DNA from: a virus
Virus record (IMG/VR): IMGVR_UViG_3300044712_001255
Span: 1 to 64,000 of that record
Reading direction: 5' to 3' (one strand)
DNA length: 64,000 bases
Positions 30,143 to 41,609 of the stretch are shown in pieces. Below the pieces are notes generated by a model. It had not been told where the DNA came from, did no database searches, and worked only from the letters and a program-made list of their open reading frames with translations. The first letter of the stretch is position 1, and every line of letters starts with the position of its first letter. A program made the position numbers and the translations under genes.

Positions 30143-30181
30143 ATTGTAAATGGTTGAATTTACTTGGTAGTATGGAGTCCG

Positions 30182-33100
30182 ATGGTACGTGTAGCTCACC
30201 TTGCTGATGTTCATTTTAGGGGTTTGTCACGGCACTCAGAATACAGAGAAGTATTTGATGCCTTCGCAGAAGATGCTAAGCAGGCGAAGGTAGATGCTAT
30301 ATTAGTAGCAGGCGATATTTTTCACACGAAAACAACGGGTATAAGCCCTGAGTACATTCAAGAGATTTCTCGTTGGATGACACTGTTATCTACAATTGCA
30401 CCAACGCATATTACGCTTGGTAATCACGACGGCAACTTGGTCAATATGTCACGTCAAGATGCCGTGACGCCCATCTATGACATCGTTCAAGCAAACGTAC
30501 CTGCGGGTCGTCTGTTTTTGCACAAGTTTAGTGGCGTGTATGATTTCTTGCCTGGCATAAAACTGTGCGTATTGAGTATCTTTGATGAAGACAACTGGAA
30601 GGTAGTGAATCCGGTTGACGGACACATCAACATTGCAACTTATCATGGTCCTGTCAAAGGTGCTCAGACTGAATCAGATTGGACCATTGACGATGGGTTG
30701 TTGGTGGATTCGTTCTCTAGATACGATTTCGCAATGCTGGGTGATATTCACAAGACACAATTCCTTGGATATCGAAAAACTAAGAACGGTGAAAAGCCAT
30801 GGATAGCGTACCCCGGGTCAACGCTTCAGCAGACATACAAGGAATCGCTAGACCACGGTTATTTGCTATGGAACATTGAATCACGTGATGATTTTAATGT
30901 TGAGTTTCGCATTCTTCCCAATCCACGTCCATTTGTAACGCTGAATTGGCATGATGACGTTGAAGCAACTGCCAATGATGCGTTTAAGTACGAAAAGGGA
31001 TCTAGATTTCGTATCAAAAGCGATGTGCATCTTACGCAAAAAGACATTCAGGGATTGTCATCAATCCTCAAGAATGATCGTAACGCATCTGAGGTTACTT
31101 TCAAAATTGACGTGGCTGAGAAGATAAGTGCGCAGGCTCAATATGGTTCTCTTGACTTAGCACACGAAGATATTAGAAATCCTGAGGCTATTGTGAAACT
31201 TATTATGAAGTTTCACGAAAACACAAAGCTTGATGACGATGAGTCAAAGCAAATCAAAGACTTAGTACGAACATACCTCCAGCAAGCTACCTTAGGAGAT
31301 GAAGTATCTCGAGGTTCAAAGTGGTCTCTGCGTCAGCTTAAGTTTGATAACACGTTCACATATGGGCCAAATAACGTAATCAATTTTGACAAGTTGTCTG
31401 GTGTGACTGGAATTTTTGGGCCAAATCGTGTTGGTAAATCTTCAATACCTGGAACTCTTGCATATGTGCTGTACAATGATACAGACCGTGGTTCGATAAA
31501 GAATCAATACGTGTGTAACATTCGCAAGCCCTTTTGTTATGGAAGGGCGTTGATTGCGGTAAATGGCGTTGATTATGTGATTGAACGACAAACAACAAAG
31601 TTTGAGTCAAAGAGCGGCGTTGAACATGCTATCACTTCATTGAATGCTTGGCGAGTTCTACCAAATGGTGAGCTTGAAGATCTTGCTGGTGAAGCCCGCA
31701 ATGATACTGAAAAGGTGATTCGTAGGTTACTTGGTACGTCTGATGATTTTTTGATTACCGCGTTGTCGTCACAGGGTGATGCTGATTCATACGTCAAGTA
31801 TGGGTCAACAAGACGCTGGCAAGTACTTGCAAGATTTCTTGACATTGATGTCTTTGCCAAGATGGCAGATCTTGTGAAAGAAGACATCAAGGTTGCAAAG
31901 GCACAACTACGTAACTACCCAGAAAAGAATTGGTCTGAGCTTGCCGTTGCGCTAAAGGCCGATTTTAAAAGCTGTGATCACGATCTAGCACAAAAGGTAG
32001 CAGATTTGCTCGTTGTGCAGAATCAACTTGCGTTGTTGCGAGCGCAACTGGCAAAATACGATGACATCACGCCAGTTACTGAAGATGAACTTTCTTCTGC
32101 TAAGACAAAGAAAGTAACTCTCACAAGTAGATTAGGAAAGCTACAACGGCAAATTGACACGTGCAACGCATCAATTAAAACTATCAATGATGATAGTGAT
32201 AAACTACGAGATGAATTGCAAACATATGATGTTGAAACTCTCAACACAAGATTGGTATTATTGAAGTCGCTACGTGAACAACTTGCAACGTTGCGTCACA
32301 ATAGTGAAAAGCAACAAACGGCATCATCTACTGCAAAGAAATCTGTGAAGTTGCTTGATACTGTTCCTTGTGGAGACACGTTTCCAACGTGCAGATTCAT
32401 CAAAGATGCTCACGAAAATCGTAAAAATTTAGCTACGCTTGAAGCTACGACAAAGGCTGCGCTCGATGCAGTCTCAGAAGCTGAAGACACATTACAGACT
32501 CTAATAGCTGAAAGGGTTGAAGACGCGTTGTCTAACATTCAACGAATTCAGGAACAAATTAAGACATTCGATATTGATCTCTTGAAAAAAGAGAATGAAA
32601 TCGTTCGCCTGCAAGCTGAGTTTGATGCAACCACGATCGCCCTACGTGATGCTACGGCTGCTCTTGGCAAGCTTGAAGAGTCTGTACACAATGATCAGAA
32701 CACGGCAATCATCGACCTACAACAACAAATAGATGCTCTCGATGCTGAGGCTCATGCAATTGATAAAGAAAAACTTGCGCTTGCTTCTCGAAAGGGACGC
32801 ATCGAATCAGACGTATTGAAGTTAGCAGATGAAAGACGTCAACGCGAAAAGATTCTAAAGAGCATGAAGGTACATGAGTTGTTGTTCTTGGCGTTTTCAA
32901 AGAAGGGCATTCCAAGAATGATCATCAGCACGCAGTTGCCTGCGATCAATGCAGAGATTTCAAAAATCTTGTCTGGCATCGTGAATTACACTGTTGAATT
33001 TGAAAATGATGAAGATTCTGACAAGCTTGATCTATACCTCAACTACGGAGATTCTCGTCGTATCATTGAGCTTGGTTCTGGCATGGAGAAGATGATGGCG

Positions 33101-33349
33101 TCAATAGCCATTCGTGTCGCAATGACAAATGTATCTTCTTTACCGCGACCAGATATTTTCATCATTGATGAAGGATTTGGTAATCTTGATGAGAGTAATC
33201 TTGAATCATGCACTCGCTTGTTGCGGTCACTCACCCAATACTTCAGGAATGTGCTTGTCATTAGCCATGTTGATGCTATCAAGGATGCAATTGATAACAT
33301 GATCGAGATTACAAGGGACGAACGTGAGTCTCGAGTGGTGTATGATTGA
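30182..33349 (+). CDS. Single-chain SbcD-SbcC (Mre11-Rad50) recombination nuclease-ATPase
   Basis: A 1055-residue fusion of two proteins that are normally separate (T4 gp47 and gp46). Residues 1 to about 390 are the SbcD phosphoesterase nuclease, with D9 and H11 in LADVHF, GDIFH near 45, and GNHDG at 80-84. The rest is SbcC: Walker A GIFGPNRVGKSS near 410, two long coiled-coil arms meeting at a hook CGDTFPTC near 729 (wider than the usual C-x2-C), signature ELGSGMEKMMAS, and Walker B IFIIDEGFG near 992. It processes DNA ends for recombination-dependent replication. I chose the ATG behind GGAG; a TTG six codons upstream is in frame but has no ribosome site. A TAGTAT hexamer lies 8 nt before the ATG. 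Confidence 0.9.
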   Translation: MVRVAHLADVHFRGLSRHSEYREVFDAFAEDAKQAKVDAILVAGDIFHTKTTGISPEYIQEISRWMTLLSTIAPTHITLGNHDGNLVNMSRQDAVTPIYDIVQANVPAGRLFLHKFSGVYDFLPGIKLCVLSIFDEDNWKVVNPVDGHINIATYHGPVKGAQTESDWTIDDGLLVDSFSRYDFAMLGDIHKTQFLGYRKTKNGEKPWIAYPGSTLQQTYKESLDHGYLLWNIESRDDFNVEFRILPNPRPFVTLNWHDDVEATANDAFKYEKGSRFRIKSDVHLTQKDIQGLSSILKNDRNASEVTFKIDVAEKISAQAQYGSLDLAHEDIRNPEAIVKLIMKFHENTKLDDDESKQIKDLVRTYLQQATLGDEVSRGSKWSLRQLKFDNTFTYGPNNVINFDKLSGVTGIFGPNRVGKSSIPGTLAYVLYNDTDRGSIKNQYVCNIRKPFCYGRALIAVNGVDYVIERQTTKFESKSGVEHAITSLNAWRVLPNGELEDLAGEARNDTEKVIRRLLGTSDDFLITALSSQGDADSYVKYGSTRRWQVLARFLDIDVFAKMADLVKEDIKVAKAQLRNYPEKNWSELAVALKADFKSCDHDLAQKVADLLVVQNQLALLRAQLAKYDDITPVTEDELSSAKTKKVTLTSRLGKLQRQIDTCNASIKTINDDSDKLRDELQTYDVETLNTRLVLLKSLREQLATLRHNSEKQQTASSTAKKSVKLLDTVPCGDTFPTCRFIKDAHENRKNLATLEATTKAALDAVSEAEDTLQTLIAERVEDALSNIQRIQEQIKTFDIDLLKKENEIVRLQAEFDATTIALRDATAALGKLEESVHNDQNTAIIDLQQQIDALDAEAHAIDKEKLALASRKGRIESDVLKLADERRQREKILKSMKVHELLFLAFSKKGIPRMIISTQLPAINAEISKILSGIVNYTVEFENDEDSDKLDLYLNYGDSRRIIELGSGMEKMMASIAIRVAMTNVSSLPRPDIFIIDEGFGNLDESNLESCTRLLRSLTQYFRNVLVISHVDAIKDAIDNMIEITRDERESRVVYD
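33341..33346 (+). promoter_or_regulatory. -10 element at the start of the zinc-binding small gene
   Basis: TATGAT ends exactly 6 nt before the GTG of the downstream small gene and overlaps the last codons of the SbcCD-like gene. No ribosome site or strong -35 is visible. Because it is inside coding sequence, chance occurrence is more likely than for the other four sites. Confidence 0.35.
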
Positions 33350-36286: not shown

Positions 36287-39200
36287 ATGACAAAAAAGAA
36301 AGAAGACGCATCGCTGTTTCAACGTTTGACTCGCCTGTTTCGTTCAGGTGGCAAACTACGTCGTAAGGTAAAGACGTCTGATACGTTGCAAGCGGTGCCA
36401 GATAAGACAAAGTCGTCTGGCGTTCTTCTTTTTCAAAAGTCGATGTCTCCGACGTATGCGACTGTAACAAGCAACGCATACAATCTTTCTGAACGCCTGA
36501 TGCGATATCAGGATTTTCAAGAGATGGAATACACCGCTGAATTAGCATCAGCGCTTGACATATACGCTGATGAGTCTGTTCCACAAGATGACAAGGGACG
36601 CGTTCTTCACATCCATTCAGAGAACGAGAAAATCAAAGAGATTCTTGAGGACTTGTTCTACAATGTGTTGAACATCAGTTTTAACGGGCGTCCATGGGTA
36701 AGAAATCTTTGTAAGTACGGATGCTTCTTTTTGTATCTTGACGTATCGCCAGAATATGGCGTGATGAATGCTTTCCCAATCCCGGTGAACGAGATTGAGC
36801 GTGAGGAAAATTACGATAGAGAAGATCCGTTCGCTGTAAGATTTCGTTGGGTGACGCTTGGCAACAAGACGTTAGAGAATTGGGAAGTTGCTCACTTTAG
36901 GCTTTTGGGCAATGACATGTTCTTGCCTTACGGCTCTTCTGTTTTGGAACCAGCTCGACGCATTTGGCGACAGCTAATTCTTGCTGAGGACGCGATGCTT
37001 GTGTATCGTGTCGTAAGAGCTCCAGAACGTCGAGTATTCTACATTGACGTTGGTAATATCCCGGCAGACGAAGTTGATGCTTACATGGAGAAGCAGAAAA
37101 CACAGCTTCGTTCCAGCAGCGTTGTTGAGAACACCACCGGAAAACAAGATCTGCGGTACAACCCCATGCCGGTGCATAAAGATACACCCGTACCATTATT
37201 GGATGGTCGTACGGTGACGATAGAAAACTTAGCGCAAGAAATATCAGAGAACCCAAATAATGATGTGTGGGTTTATTCTGTGAATGACAGTGATCATAGA
37301 ATTGTTCCCGGTAGAGTTATATGGTGTGGTAAGAACTACTCCGCAGAAAAACTCATAAAAGTATGGTTAGATAACGACAGTTATGTCACGACTGCGCCTG
37401 AGCATCCATTTGTAATGCGTGACGGGTCAAATAAGAGAGCAGACGAACTTGTCGTGAATGACAGTTTAATGCCATTCTATCGTATAGAAACTAATAACGG
37501 GTATGAAGAAATTTATGACCCTCGTAGCAATGCATACGTCAAAACTCATAAAGTTGTTGCTAGTAATGTTTTAGTTGAGGAGTGGAATAACACAGAACAT
37601 AAGGTTGTTCATCACAAACATCCTGAGATCATTGGGAATAAGAGAAATAATCATCCAGATAATTTGCAAGTGATGTCATTTTGGGATCATCGAAGGTGGC
37701 ATATTGATAGATTACCATTGACATTACACAGACCTGATGTTTTACAAAAGACGCGTGAACGTTTGACGGCATGGAATAAGAGCTCGATAAAGAAACAACG
37801 TGTTTCTGAACTGAATAAGGAACGTAATTCTGTTGTAGCTATGGCAGGCTATAATGGAAGTGAGCTTCATAAATCACATAATGAAAATCGTCGTCAAGGC
37901 CAGAAGCGATCATGGGCAACAAATAAACAACAACGTTCACAAACTATGAAATGGATCATACCCGATGAATTTTTTGTCATCGGCGCACAGAAATTGCGTG
38001 AAGATCCTACGCTTAATAGACAAAGATTTCATGCTACAATGATGGCTGATTCTAATGTGATACGTTTGCTTAGAAGGGCGCAAATTACTAAGCGTGACGT
38101 CAATAAGATGTCAGAGGCAGCGTGGATTCGTCAATTACAAGAAAACACCGGCGCAACGTTTGGCACATTTAAGAGAACGACATTGGGCGATGCGTATGTT
38201 GCTCGCAAAAATCATAAAGTTTCACGAGTTGAGCATCTTGATGTGCAAGGTGAAGACGTCTATTGCATGACAGTTGTTGGACCAAACGGAGAAAATGACA
38301 GACACAACTTTGCAGTTTGTGGTTTGACGCCTTCAACTGATGGATCAACAAATGTAACGCAAGTAGATGGAATTATTCTTAAAAACTCAATTGAAGAGGA
38401 CTACTTCATAGCTGTTCGTGGCGGTGATACTGGCACAAAGATTGATACTCTCGCCGGCGGGCAAAATGCTGCCGCCGTTGAAGACGTCGAGTACATTCAG
38501 AAGAAGATGATTGCTGCTATCAAGATTCCACGTGCGTATCTTGGATATGATGACATGCTTTCGTCAAAGGCAACGCTGGCGCAAGAGGACATTCGTTTTG
38601 CGCGTACCATCAATTCAATTCAAAAGACCGTTGTTGCTGAGTTCAATAAGATCGCAATCATTCACCTATTTTCACATGGATATGATGGCGAAGATTTGAT
38701 GAACTTTACGCTAAGGCTGACCAACCCTTCGTCAATCGCAGAACAACAGAAGCTTGAGCTTTGGCGCGCAAGATTCGATATTGCTGGCACGGCGCCAGAT
38801 GGTATGCTATCAAAGCGCTGGATTGGAAAGACAATTCTCAACCTCACGGATTCTGAAATTCGTGAGATTCGCGAGGACATAGTCGCTGAAGGAGGAGAAG
38901 CTGAAGCCGGTGGCGGCGGAGGTGGAGGAGGCGGCGGTGGAGGGGGTCTGTTTGGTGGTGGAGGTGACCTTGGTGGTGGCGAAGGCGAAGCCGGTGGTGA
39001 AGAAGCCGCAGGCGGTGAAGAAGCAGCGCCAGAAGAAACAGAAGAGACTGAGGGCGATGTTCTCAAATCATCTGAAGATCACTCAGGTACGCCTATAAAG
39101 GTGACTGCTCGCGTAAAGTTACCGTCCGATAACGGATACGCAGGTACTGGAACGTATCAAAATTCTTCTGATATTTCCTCATCGAGATCTCAGCCCACAG

Positions 39201-39592
39201 ACGCAAAGAGCAAGCGTCATTCCAATTACGTCAATCGTGAAAAGAAAGGCCCAGAAGGTGGGTATCGAGATTTTGAAGGTGTTATATCTGCCCAACAAAA
39301 GGTGGGAGATCATACAGATATGAACTCTTTCAAAACATTGTTTGGCACGAAGGTATCTCGTCGTTATGGCGAATCAGTTGAACAGCCAGAGCGTACTATG
39401 TTGGCGATGGCACCTGATATGATTTCCTTATTTGAAAAGATGTCTCATGTCGGATTCGGTCGCAAGAAGGCGACGTTACGTCAAGGTGTCAATAGTGACA
39501 TCATCAGAGACAGCGTTGATATCCAAGATGAGATTGACGCAGGCGCAGGAGTCTTGTTAGAGGACCTAGATATTGTTGAGAACGAGGACTAA
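36287..39592 (+). CDS. Portal protein (T4 gp20-like) interrupted by an intein
   Basis: A 1101-residue precursor of the portal, the dodecameric DNA channel at the head vertex. Extein features include ESVPQDDKGRVL and YGSSVLEPARRIW. Near 705-760 it has EEDYFIAVRGGDTGTKIDTL then GGQNAAAVEDVEYIQKKM, the conserved gp20 stretch with TLAGGQN. Removing the intein (residues 295-700) joins ...LRYNPM to SIEEDYF, restoring the family pattern M-S-x-x-E-D-F/Y. The mature portal would be 695 residues, longer than gp20 (about 520). The excess is an unusual C-terminal tail with a glycine run (about 875-905), an acidic Glu/Ala region and a final basic-acidic segment. GAGGTAAAG precedes the ATG. Confidence 0.92.
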   Translation: MTKKKEDASLFQRLTRLFRSGGKLRRKVKTSDTLQAVPDKTKSSGVLLFQKSMSPTYATVTSNAYNLSERLMRYQDFQEMEYTAELASALDIYADESVPQDDKGRVLHIHSENEKIKEILEDLFYNVLNISFNGRPWVRNLCKYGCFFLYLDVSPEYGVMNAFPIPVNEIEREENYDREDPFAVRFRWVTLGNKTLENWEVAHFRLLGNDMFLPYGSSVLEPARRIWRQLILAEDAMLVYRVVRAPERRVFYIDVGNIPADEVDAYMEKQKTQLRSSSVVENTTGKQDLRYNPMPVHKDTPVPLLDGRTVTIENLAQEISENPNNDVWVYSVNDSDHRIVPGRVIWCGKNYSAEKLIKVWLDNDSYVTTAPEHPFVMRDGSNKRADELVVNDSLMPFYRIETNNGYEEIYDPRSNAYVKTHKVVASNVLVEEWNNTEHKVVHHKHPEIIGNKRNNHPDNLQVMSFWDHRRWHIDRLPLTLHRPDVLQKTRERLTAWNKSSIKKQRVSELNKERNSVVAMAGYNGSELHKSHNENRRQGQKRSWATNKQQRSQTMKWIIPDEFFVIGAQKLREDPTLNRQRFHATMMADSNVIRLLRRAQITKRDVNKMSEAAWIRQLQENTGATFGTFKRTTLGDAYVARKNHKVSRVEHLDVQGEDVYCMTVVGPNGENDRHNFAVCGLTPSTDGSTNVTQVDGIILKNSIEEDYFIAVRGGDTGTKIDTLAGGQNAAAVEDVEYIQKKMIAAIKIPRAYLGYDDMLSSKATLAQEDIRFARTINSIQKTVVAEFNKIAIIHLFSHGYDGEDLMNFTLRLTNPSSIAEQQKLELWRARFDIAGTAPDGMLSKRWIGKTILNLTDSEIREIREDIVAEGGEAEAGGGGGGGGGGGGGLFGGGGDLGGGEGEAGGEEAAGGEEAAPEETEETEGDVLKSSEDHSGTPIKVTARVKLPSDNGYAGTGTYQNSSDISSSRSQPTDAKSKRHSNYVNREKKGPEGGYRDFEGVISAQQKVGDHTDMNSFKTLFGTKVSRRYGESVEQPERTMLAMAPDMISLFEKMSHVGFGRKKATLRQGVNSDIIRDSVDIQDEIDAGAGVLLEDLDIVENED
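37169..38386 (+). other. In-frame intein with HNH endonuclease domain, proline at position 1
   Basis: A 406-residue protein-splicing element. Block A is DTPVPLLDGRTV and block B is TTAPEHPF. Block F is VYCMTVVG with Cys (precursor residue 660) where Asp is most common, then the HNFAV motif, and the end is GIILKN followed by Ser+1. By extein homology the first intein residue is Pro, not Cys or Ser, and the usual penultimate His is Lys. An HNH homing domain (HKVVHHKHPEIIGNKRNN, about residues 437-475) lies in the middle. Loss of the N-terminal nucleophile with a block F Cys is the mark of class 3 inteins, but the accompanying Trp (block B) and Thr (block G) of that class are not seen. Confidence 0.85.
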
Positions 39593-41123: not shown

Positions 41124-41609
41124 ATGAGCGGTCACTTTGATGATGGAATTCTGGATGCAGTTTGTGCGCTTATCACAGACGTAGCGTCGGCAAAAGTAAC
41201 CGCTGCTCACATGATTGACGTGATGCGGCACACAAATTGTATTGGGCTGTCTGCGCCACAAATAGGCGTAACATCACGTATGATATTGTTGAACGGTCAT
41301 GTTCTTGACATGACACGTCAAGAGATCATTATGCTCAATCCAAACATCATAGTCAAAGCTGATGAATGGCGATCAATGTCTGAGACGTGTACATCATTCC
41401 CAGGATTCAGCGCAACAATTCCTCGAGCAAAGAGTGTCTTTGTTGAGTACATTGATTTGAGTGGAACAGTGCGCCGTGAAGAATTTCAAGACATTGCCGC
41501 TCGCGTTGTTCAACATGAAATTGATCACCTTGACGGAATCACGATACTGGATCGAGCACCGAGACCCATCAGGAAGAAATATATTTCATCTAAGAGGAGT
41601 CGCCAATGA
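41124..41609 (+). CDS. def: Peptide deformylase
   Basis: A 161-residue metalloenzyme that removes the formyl group from new N-terminal methionines. The three motifs are visible: GLSAPQIG at 41-48 (motif 1), ETCTSFPG at 87-94 with Cys89 as metal ligand (EGCLS in most), and QHEIDHLDG with His131, Glu132 and His135 (motif 3). Phage deformylases are known to be short like this one. It sits inside the head module, directly after the protease and overlapping the next gene by 4 nt. Likely role: keeping up co-translational processing during heavy late protein synthesis. Confidence 0.9.
   Translation: MSGHFDDGILDAVCALITDVASAKVTAAHMIDVMRHTNCIGLSAPQIGVTSRMILLNGHVLDMTRQEIIMLNPNIIVKADEWRSMSETCTSFPGFSATIPRAKSVFVEYIDLSGTVRREEFQDIAARVVQHEIDHLDGITILDRAPRPIRKKYISSKRSRQ

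Follow-up and report, generated by a model that had tools for sequence, protein, structure and literature searches.

The window analysed here, a 64,000-nucleotide stretch from the record of a large phage (324,468 bases), carries on its plus strand a T4-type portal gene with an in-frame intein whose first residue is proline. The portal ORF matches Pfam Portal_T4 (E 1.5e-70) and the PHROG 213 portal family (5.1e-67), contains an intein splicing domain detected by Pfam PF14890 (1.9e-10) and NCBIfam TIGR01445 (1.8e-9), and is flanked by a terminase gene upstream and by genes encoding a prohead protease and a major head protein downstream. The length of 695 aa given in the original prediction for the portal once the intein is removed agrees with the 1101-aa ORF minus the 406-aa insert. 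Between these last two genes sits one for a peptide deformylase (41124–41609), and a window ORF at 30164–33349, apparently a fused nuclease, matches SbcD-like and SbcC-like families. A second intein in the same phage record (L002, about 105,268–105,756) is class 1 with Cys1, and its host gene resembles ribonucleotide reductase. The features of the portal locus are given below, with intein residues numbered from Pro1 and inteins of this type called Pro1 inteins.

36287–39592, plus strand: T4-type (gp20-like) portal ORF with the intein inside, 1101-aa precursor
37169–38386, plus strand: intein, Pro1 to Asn406, 406 aa, stop-free; supported by empty alleles, T4 gp20 alignment, AF2 and Foldseek
37169–37171, plus strand: Pro1 (A:1), in 81/81 Pro1 inteins; 117 related class 1 inteins have Cys (111) or Ser (6)
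37325–37327, plus strand: Cys53, a second family-specific cysteine, in 80/81 Pro1 inteins
37394–37396, plus strand: Ala76 (B:7), replacing the usual Thr; Ala in 52/81 Pro1 inteins
37403–37405, plus strand: His79 (B:10), conserved without exception in Pro1 inteins and in related class 1 inteins
37409–37411, plus strand: Phe81 (B:12), where WCT class 3 inteins have Trp; among 80 Pro1 inteins F 49, Y 10, W 8 and others 13
37544–37702, plus strand: HNH homing endonuclease core, HHKHPE..NKRNNHPDNLQVM..DHRRWH, matching PHROG 7545 HNH endonuclease
38264–38266, plus strand: Cys366 (F:4), nucleophile and first branch point in the proposed route, present in 81/81 Pro1 inteins
38303–38305, plus strand: His379 of the block F motif DRHNF, an invariant column in the 60-sequence alignment
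38378–38386, plus strand: Leu404-Lys405-Asn406, positions G:5, G:6 and G:7, scored in 80 Pro1 inteins
38387–38389, plus strand: Ser+1, first C-extein residue; +1 is Cys in 45, Ser in 28 and Thr in 7 of 80 Pro1 inteins

The intein-free portal sequence, used as a query, returned 80 portal relatives, most of them 61–83% identical, of which 76 could be scored and 4 could not. The site is empty in 70 of the 76, reading for example RYNPM/SVEEDFF, RYNPM/SVEEDF or RYNPL/SVDEDY (the slash marks the insertion point), and the other 6 carry an intein at exactly the RYNP[ML]/ site. T4 gp20 (PDB 3ja7) aligns gap-free across the same point (..NMSMTEDYW), which falls in the conserved portal core. The junctions were assigned to Met294/Pro1 and Asn406/Ser+1 because no other cut reproduces the empty site; other left junctions were ruled out, as RYNPMS is restored solely by cuts at M/P and N/S. 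The Pro-first left junction that had been predicted is thereby fixed by about 70 intein-free alleles and T4 gp20, and the alignment with intein-free portals, set beforehand as a possible refutation, did not move it to a Cys, Ser or Ala. The insert is missing in homologues, is predicted to adopt the HINT fold, contains blocks A, B, F and G, and has an Asn end followed by a C/S/T residue at +1, all as in inteins. The AF2 model of the window precursor computed with a 60-member family alignment has a mean pLDDT of 91.2 and its top Foldseek matches are intein structures; the model computed with no alignment (pLDDT 35) was unusable. The HNH endonuclease match covers residues 400–474 of the portal ORF (E 6.4e-6), and this core is missing from the mini-intein relatives.

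The block F cysteine, recognised earlier as Cys660 of the portal ORF and as occupying the class 3 nucleophile position, is Cys366 at F:4. The reported lack of the class 3 Trp and Thr was borne out, with Phe81 at B:12 and Leu404 at G:5, as was the replacement of the penultimate His by Lys (Lys405 at G:6). The block G departures extend across the family, since G:5 is Thr in 1/80 and G:6 is His in 0/80 Pro1 inteins, while the last residue is Asn in 79 and Gln in 1. The Arg of DRHNF is found in 81/81. Two further positions separate the Pro1 inteins from the 117 related class 1 inteins: none of the latter has Cys at residue 53, which is mostly Ala (97), and none has Ala at B:7, where they carry Thr, Ser or Asn.

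Used alone as a query against viral contigs, the window intein sequence gave no match, and alignment queries were required. Alignment-based scans, of which the best 80 of 147, of 529 and of 566 relatives were taken, yielded at least 80 distinct Pro1 inteins (80–81) in metagenomic phage portal genes, all with F:4 Cys and His B:10. Family statistics refer to the 80 distinct Pro1 inteins with both ends scored, and residue-column comparisons to 81 Pro1 versus 117 class 1 inteins taken from similar loci. The first relatives came from translated inserts of related portals, with Pro1 at the site of the window intein in L070, L073, L074 and L086 and at a second site, before a CKYGD motif, in L069, L078 and L085; across the family three portal insertion sites are used (RYNP[ML]/, W.RN[LMT]/ and LPGG../). 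The residue preceding the intein is Leu in 41 and Met in 26 of the 80, His B:10 is present in 80/80, and +1 is C/S/T in 80/80. The count of covariation between Pro1 and F:4 Cys was redone on loci from other queries because the first scan pattern contained YCM and was biased for F:4 Cys. Among loci from queries with no Cys-containing pattern, Pro1 occurred with F:4 Cys in 57/57 distinct inteins, and F:4 of the related Cys1/Ser1 inteins was D in 47, T in 28, C in 22 and another residue in 7. N-terminal searches with residue 1 left unspecified gave solely P, C and S among the matches listed, bar one alignment artefact. Judged from these alignments the Pro1/Cys F:4 pattern is far from chance, and it does not represent many independent events, since the Pro1 inteins form one clade.

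The Pro1 family is so far almost wholly metagenomic. Annotated phage records (n = 50,697) gave weak, distant matches at most, and the 84,980 genomes of GTDB gave one contig with Pro1 inteins, binned as Candidatus Wolfebacteria, on which a 1878-aa portal ORF (L338, 1408–7044) carries four inteins (Ser1, Cys1, Pro1, Pro1). T4-type portal genes are a hotspot for inteins, which occupy at least six different sites in them (L338, L150, L132, L085). A Pro1-intein portal at L109 (1987–5055) has 7 TGA codons in 1022 aa and is open solely with TGA as Trp, so the family is present in recoded phage too; its reading as a broken frame was dropped. No description of Pro1 inteins or of a Pro1 portal family was found in the literature searched, which does not prove novelty because most subscription papers lay outside its scope.

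Several lines of evidence bear on whether these inteins splice. Twelve of the 80 are mini-inteins of 157–255 aa that have lost the endonuclease and kept intact frames, and codon comparison of close pairs gave dN/dS values of 0.065–0.23. Residue conservation, intact mini-inteins and low dN/dS together argue that the Pro1 inteins are functional. Loss of splicing in a portal that tolerates the insert or is dispensable, one of the options raised in the original prediction, is accordingly disfavoured and appears very improbable: the class 1 nucleophile, the WCT Trp and Thr and the penultimate His are indeed all missing, and one intein related to class 3 is a known pseudogene (PMC3196547), but that pseudogene has no His B:10 and its exteins are not a functional gene, whereas here the catalytic residues are invariant across a large and divergent family, the portal frame is intact, and endonuclease-less copies persist under apparent purifying selection. 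We give almost no weight to an autocleavage element, akin to bacterial intein-like domains, that would produce a two-piece portal with no splicing; the unusual position 1 and block G would suit it, but the Asn/Gln end (80/80) and the C/S/T at +1 (80/80) are ligation requirements, and the insertion site is inside the conserved portal core. The conserved Pro1 and internal Cys in at least 80 phage relatives point to a second lineage of inteins initiated from within. The window intein is not a lone oddity, is probably not dead, and most likely splices via its F:4 Cys. We place at roughly 75% the probability that it is a splicing-competent member of a phage-portal lineage that starts with Pro and initiates splicing from an internal Cys.

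In class 3 inteins, Cys F:4 attacks the N-junction, the N-extein is passed to the +1 residue, and Asn then cyclises (PMC5222942, PMC4031507). The sequences themselves show the junctions, the insertion sites, the conserved residues of the family and its selection, together with a predicted fold; beyond these we infer a corresponding five-step route for the window intein. His79 (B:10) would hold and strain the Met294-Pro1 bond. Cys366 (F:4) would then attack the Met carbonyl to form a thioester-branched intermediate and free the Pro1 amine, after which the N-extein would be transferred to Ser+1. Asn406 is predicted to cyclise with no penultimate His, probably aided by the DRHNF histidine, and an O-to-N shift would join Met to Ser and restore the 695-aa portal. 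The N-H contact of Thr B:7 may be dispensable because the Pro1 bond is a rigid tertiary amide with no N-H, in keeping with B:7 being Ala in most members of the Pro1 family but in none of the related class 1 inteins. As to Cys53, our guess is that it assists or acts as a redox partner.

Studies of other inteins bear on individual steps. Class 3 splicing depends on Cys F:4 and is helped by Trp B:12 and Thr G:5; loss of Thr G:5 can matter minimally, while Trp B:12 matters in the class 3 inteins tested and so counts against the Pro1 route (PMC5222942). The AceL NrdHF intein performs class 3 splicing with Met at B:12 and with neither the F:13 nor the G:6 histidine, and Gly at position 1 abolishes its splicing, a sign that junction strain matters (PMC7891396). 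Among mycobacteriophage class 1 inteins there are examples with Gly, Lys or Ser as the penultimate residue (PMC5050341). For a hindered Leu/Met-Pro amide as acyl donor, no tested precedent was found in the literature searched.

By residue pattern, the empty alleles fix Pro at position 1, where class 1 inteins have Cys, Ser or Thr, and Ser+1 and Cys F:4 set the window intein apart from class 2. A class 2 route, in which the +1 residue attacks the N-junction directly, is improbable: Cys+1 occurs in 45/80 Pro1 inteins and the KlbA class 2 inteins also have no His G:6 (PMC4031507), but the Ser/Thr+1 of the window intein and 34 others are poor nucleophiles for an amide, and known class 2 inteins use Cys+1 together with Asp F:4 (PMC4031507), a position that is invariantly Cys in the Pro1 family. 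The working definition of class 3, no Cys1 and a Cys F:4 (PMC7891396), describes the window intein, whereas the WCT signature does not, with Phe81 for Trp (Trp in 8/80 of the family) and Leu404 for Thr; for these reasons we file it as a class 3-like variant, possibly of second origin.

To compare the two groups, WCT class 3 controls were taken from database hits in a homology search of named phages and viral contigs, for which the query was a consensus-like peptide. Among 72 controls, position 1 is Ala in 69, Ser in 2, Asp in 1 and Pro in none, Trp B:12 is present in 70/72, and Thr G:5 in 61/61 scored with a pattern that required His G:6. Trees were computed with residue 1 and F:4 omitted, on an alignment of only about 130 columns; of the five laboratory inteins that served as class 1 references, gp41-1 and Ssp DnaB were checked against the PDB. 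One clade (100/99) unites the Pro1 inteins with three Cys1 inteins that share their block F; it is separate from the WCT clade and nests with class 1 portal inteins that have the same extended N-half. With class 1 references included, the WCT inteins join class 1 gp41-1 (99/97). For a joint Pro1 and WCT clade, p-AU was 0.46 in the set with no class 1 outgroups, 0.067 with the five laboratory inteins and 0.025, a rejection, with 13 WCT sequences; these three values favour a separate origin without proving it. Placing every F:4-Cys intein in a single clade was rejected (p 0.0085).

These results make it unlikely that the window intein is simply a member of the established WCT class 3 lineage from which Trp and Thr have disappeared. 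Such descent would explain the non-nucleophilic position 1 and F:4 Cys common to both, would accord with the first two p-AU values, and has a parallel in the WCT deviations seen in about 5% of class 3 inteins (PMC7891396); against it stand the near-uniform Ala1, Trp B:12 and Thr G:5 of the controls, with Pro1 in 0/72, the grouping of WCT with gp41-1, the rejection with 13 WCT sequences, and the position of the Pro1 clade beside class 1 portal inteins. The suggestion of a class 3 variant is supported in the sense of a probable F:4 Cys nucleophile. By sequence the window intein stands closest to class 1 portal inteins, with the WCT inteins in a group of their own in the trees; alignment with class 3 shows the F:4 Cys common to both, but Trp, Thr and the penultimate His missing family-wide. 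The best reading of the sequences is that the route would be that of class 3 and the lineage would lie among class 1 portal inteins, lacking the Trp and Thr of the WCT triplet as well as the penultimate His.

Possible intermediates occur at the second site, where three inteins (L148, L159/L232 and L235) combine Cys1 with a YCM block F and Cys53. They nest inside the Pro1 clade with fair support, but monophyly of the Pro1 inteins by themselves was not rejected (p 0.167). The trees favour, though not significantly, a derivation of these three from Pro1 ancestors; they may be descendants of a Cys1 ancestor or reversals. A further group of Cys1 inteins, at the same portal site as Pro1 inteins (L132:4789, L150, L152, L248, L257), carries its F:4 Cys within DTGC and in most cases retains the penultimate His; at that site L087 (4637–5746) has a Cys1 intein with a Gln end and Ser at F:4. 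We tentatively propose, at rather less than even odds, that internal-Cys splicing arose a second, independent time from class 1 portal inteins with Cys1 and F:4 Cys; the strained Leu/Met-Pro bond, perhaps with Cys53, would replace the WCT apparatus, the penultimate His would be dispensable, and the Pro1 inteins would be in effect a fourth mechanistic group with living intermediates. In published accounts class 3 inteins are a monophyletic group with the WCT signature as its unifying mark (PMC3196547), and their direct evolution from class 1 has been argued to be impossible (PMC7664689). If Pro1 inteins without W and T do sit among the class 1 portal inteins, with Cys1/F:4-Cys relatives at the same site, the question of class 3 origin would become directly testable. 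Natural mini-inteins of 157–175 aa, from a family that has S, T or C at +1 and would cut at Leu/Met-Pro, could also serve in protein ligation.

Compared with known systems, the Pro1 family resembles the WCT class 3 inteins (Bethlehem DnaB, Msm DnaB-1, Bvi IcmO and phage TerL) in the non-nucleophilic position 1, Cys F:4, His B:10, C-terminal Asn, +1 nucleophile and two proposed branched intermediates. It differs from them in having Pro rather than Ala1, no consistent Trp B:12, Thr G:5 or His G:6, often Cys+1, an HNH rather than mostly LAGLIDADG endonuclease, a longer N-half and a block F insertion, and a separate clade in trees. The split class 3 intein AceL NrdHF (PMC7891396), whose splicing has been demonstrated, shares the F:4 Cys, a deviating B:12 and the lack of a G:6 His, but has Ala1, keeps Thr G:5, is split, lies in another gene and has no F:13 His, whereas the Pro1 family keeps DRHNF. 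Class 2 inteins (KlbA, Ala1) also lack a nucleophile at position 1 and the penultimate His, but use Asp F:4 and Cys+1. The closest sequence relatives are the class 1 inteins of T4-type portals, which share the gene, the insertion sites and the position of the HNH domain, and differ in Cys1 or Ser1, a usual Asp or Thr at F:4, Thr or Ser at B:7 and mostly Ala at residue 53.
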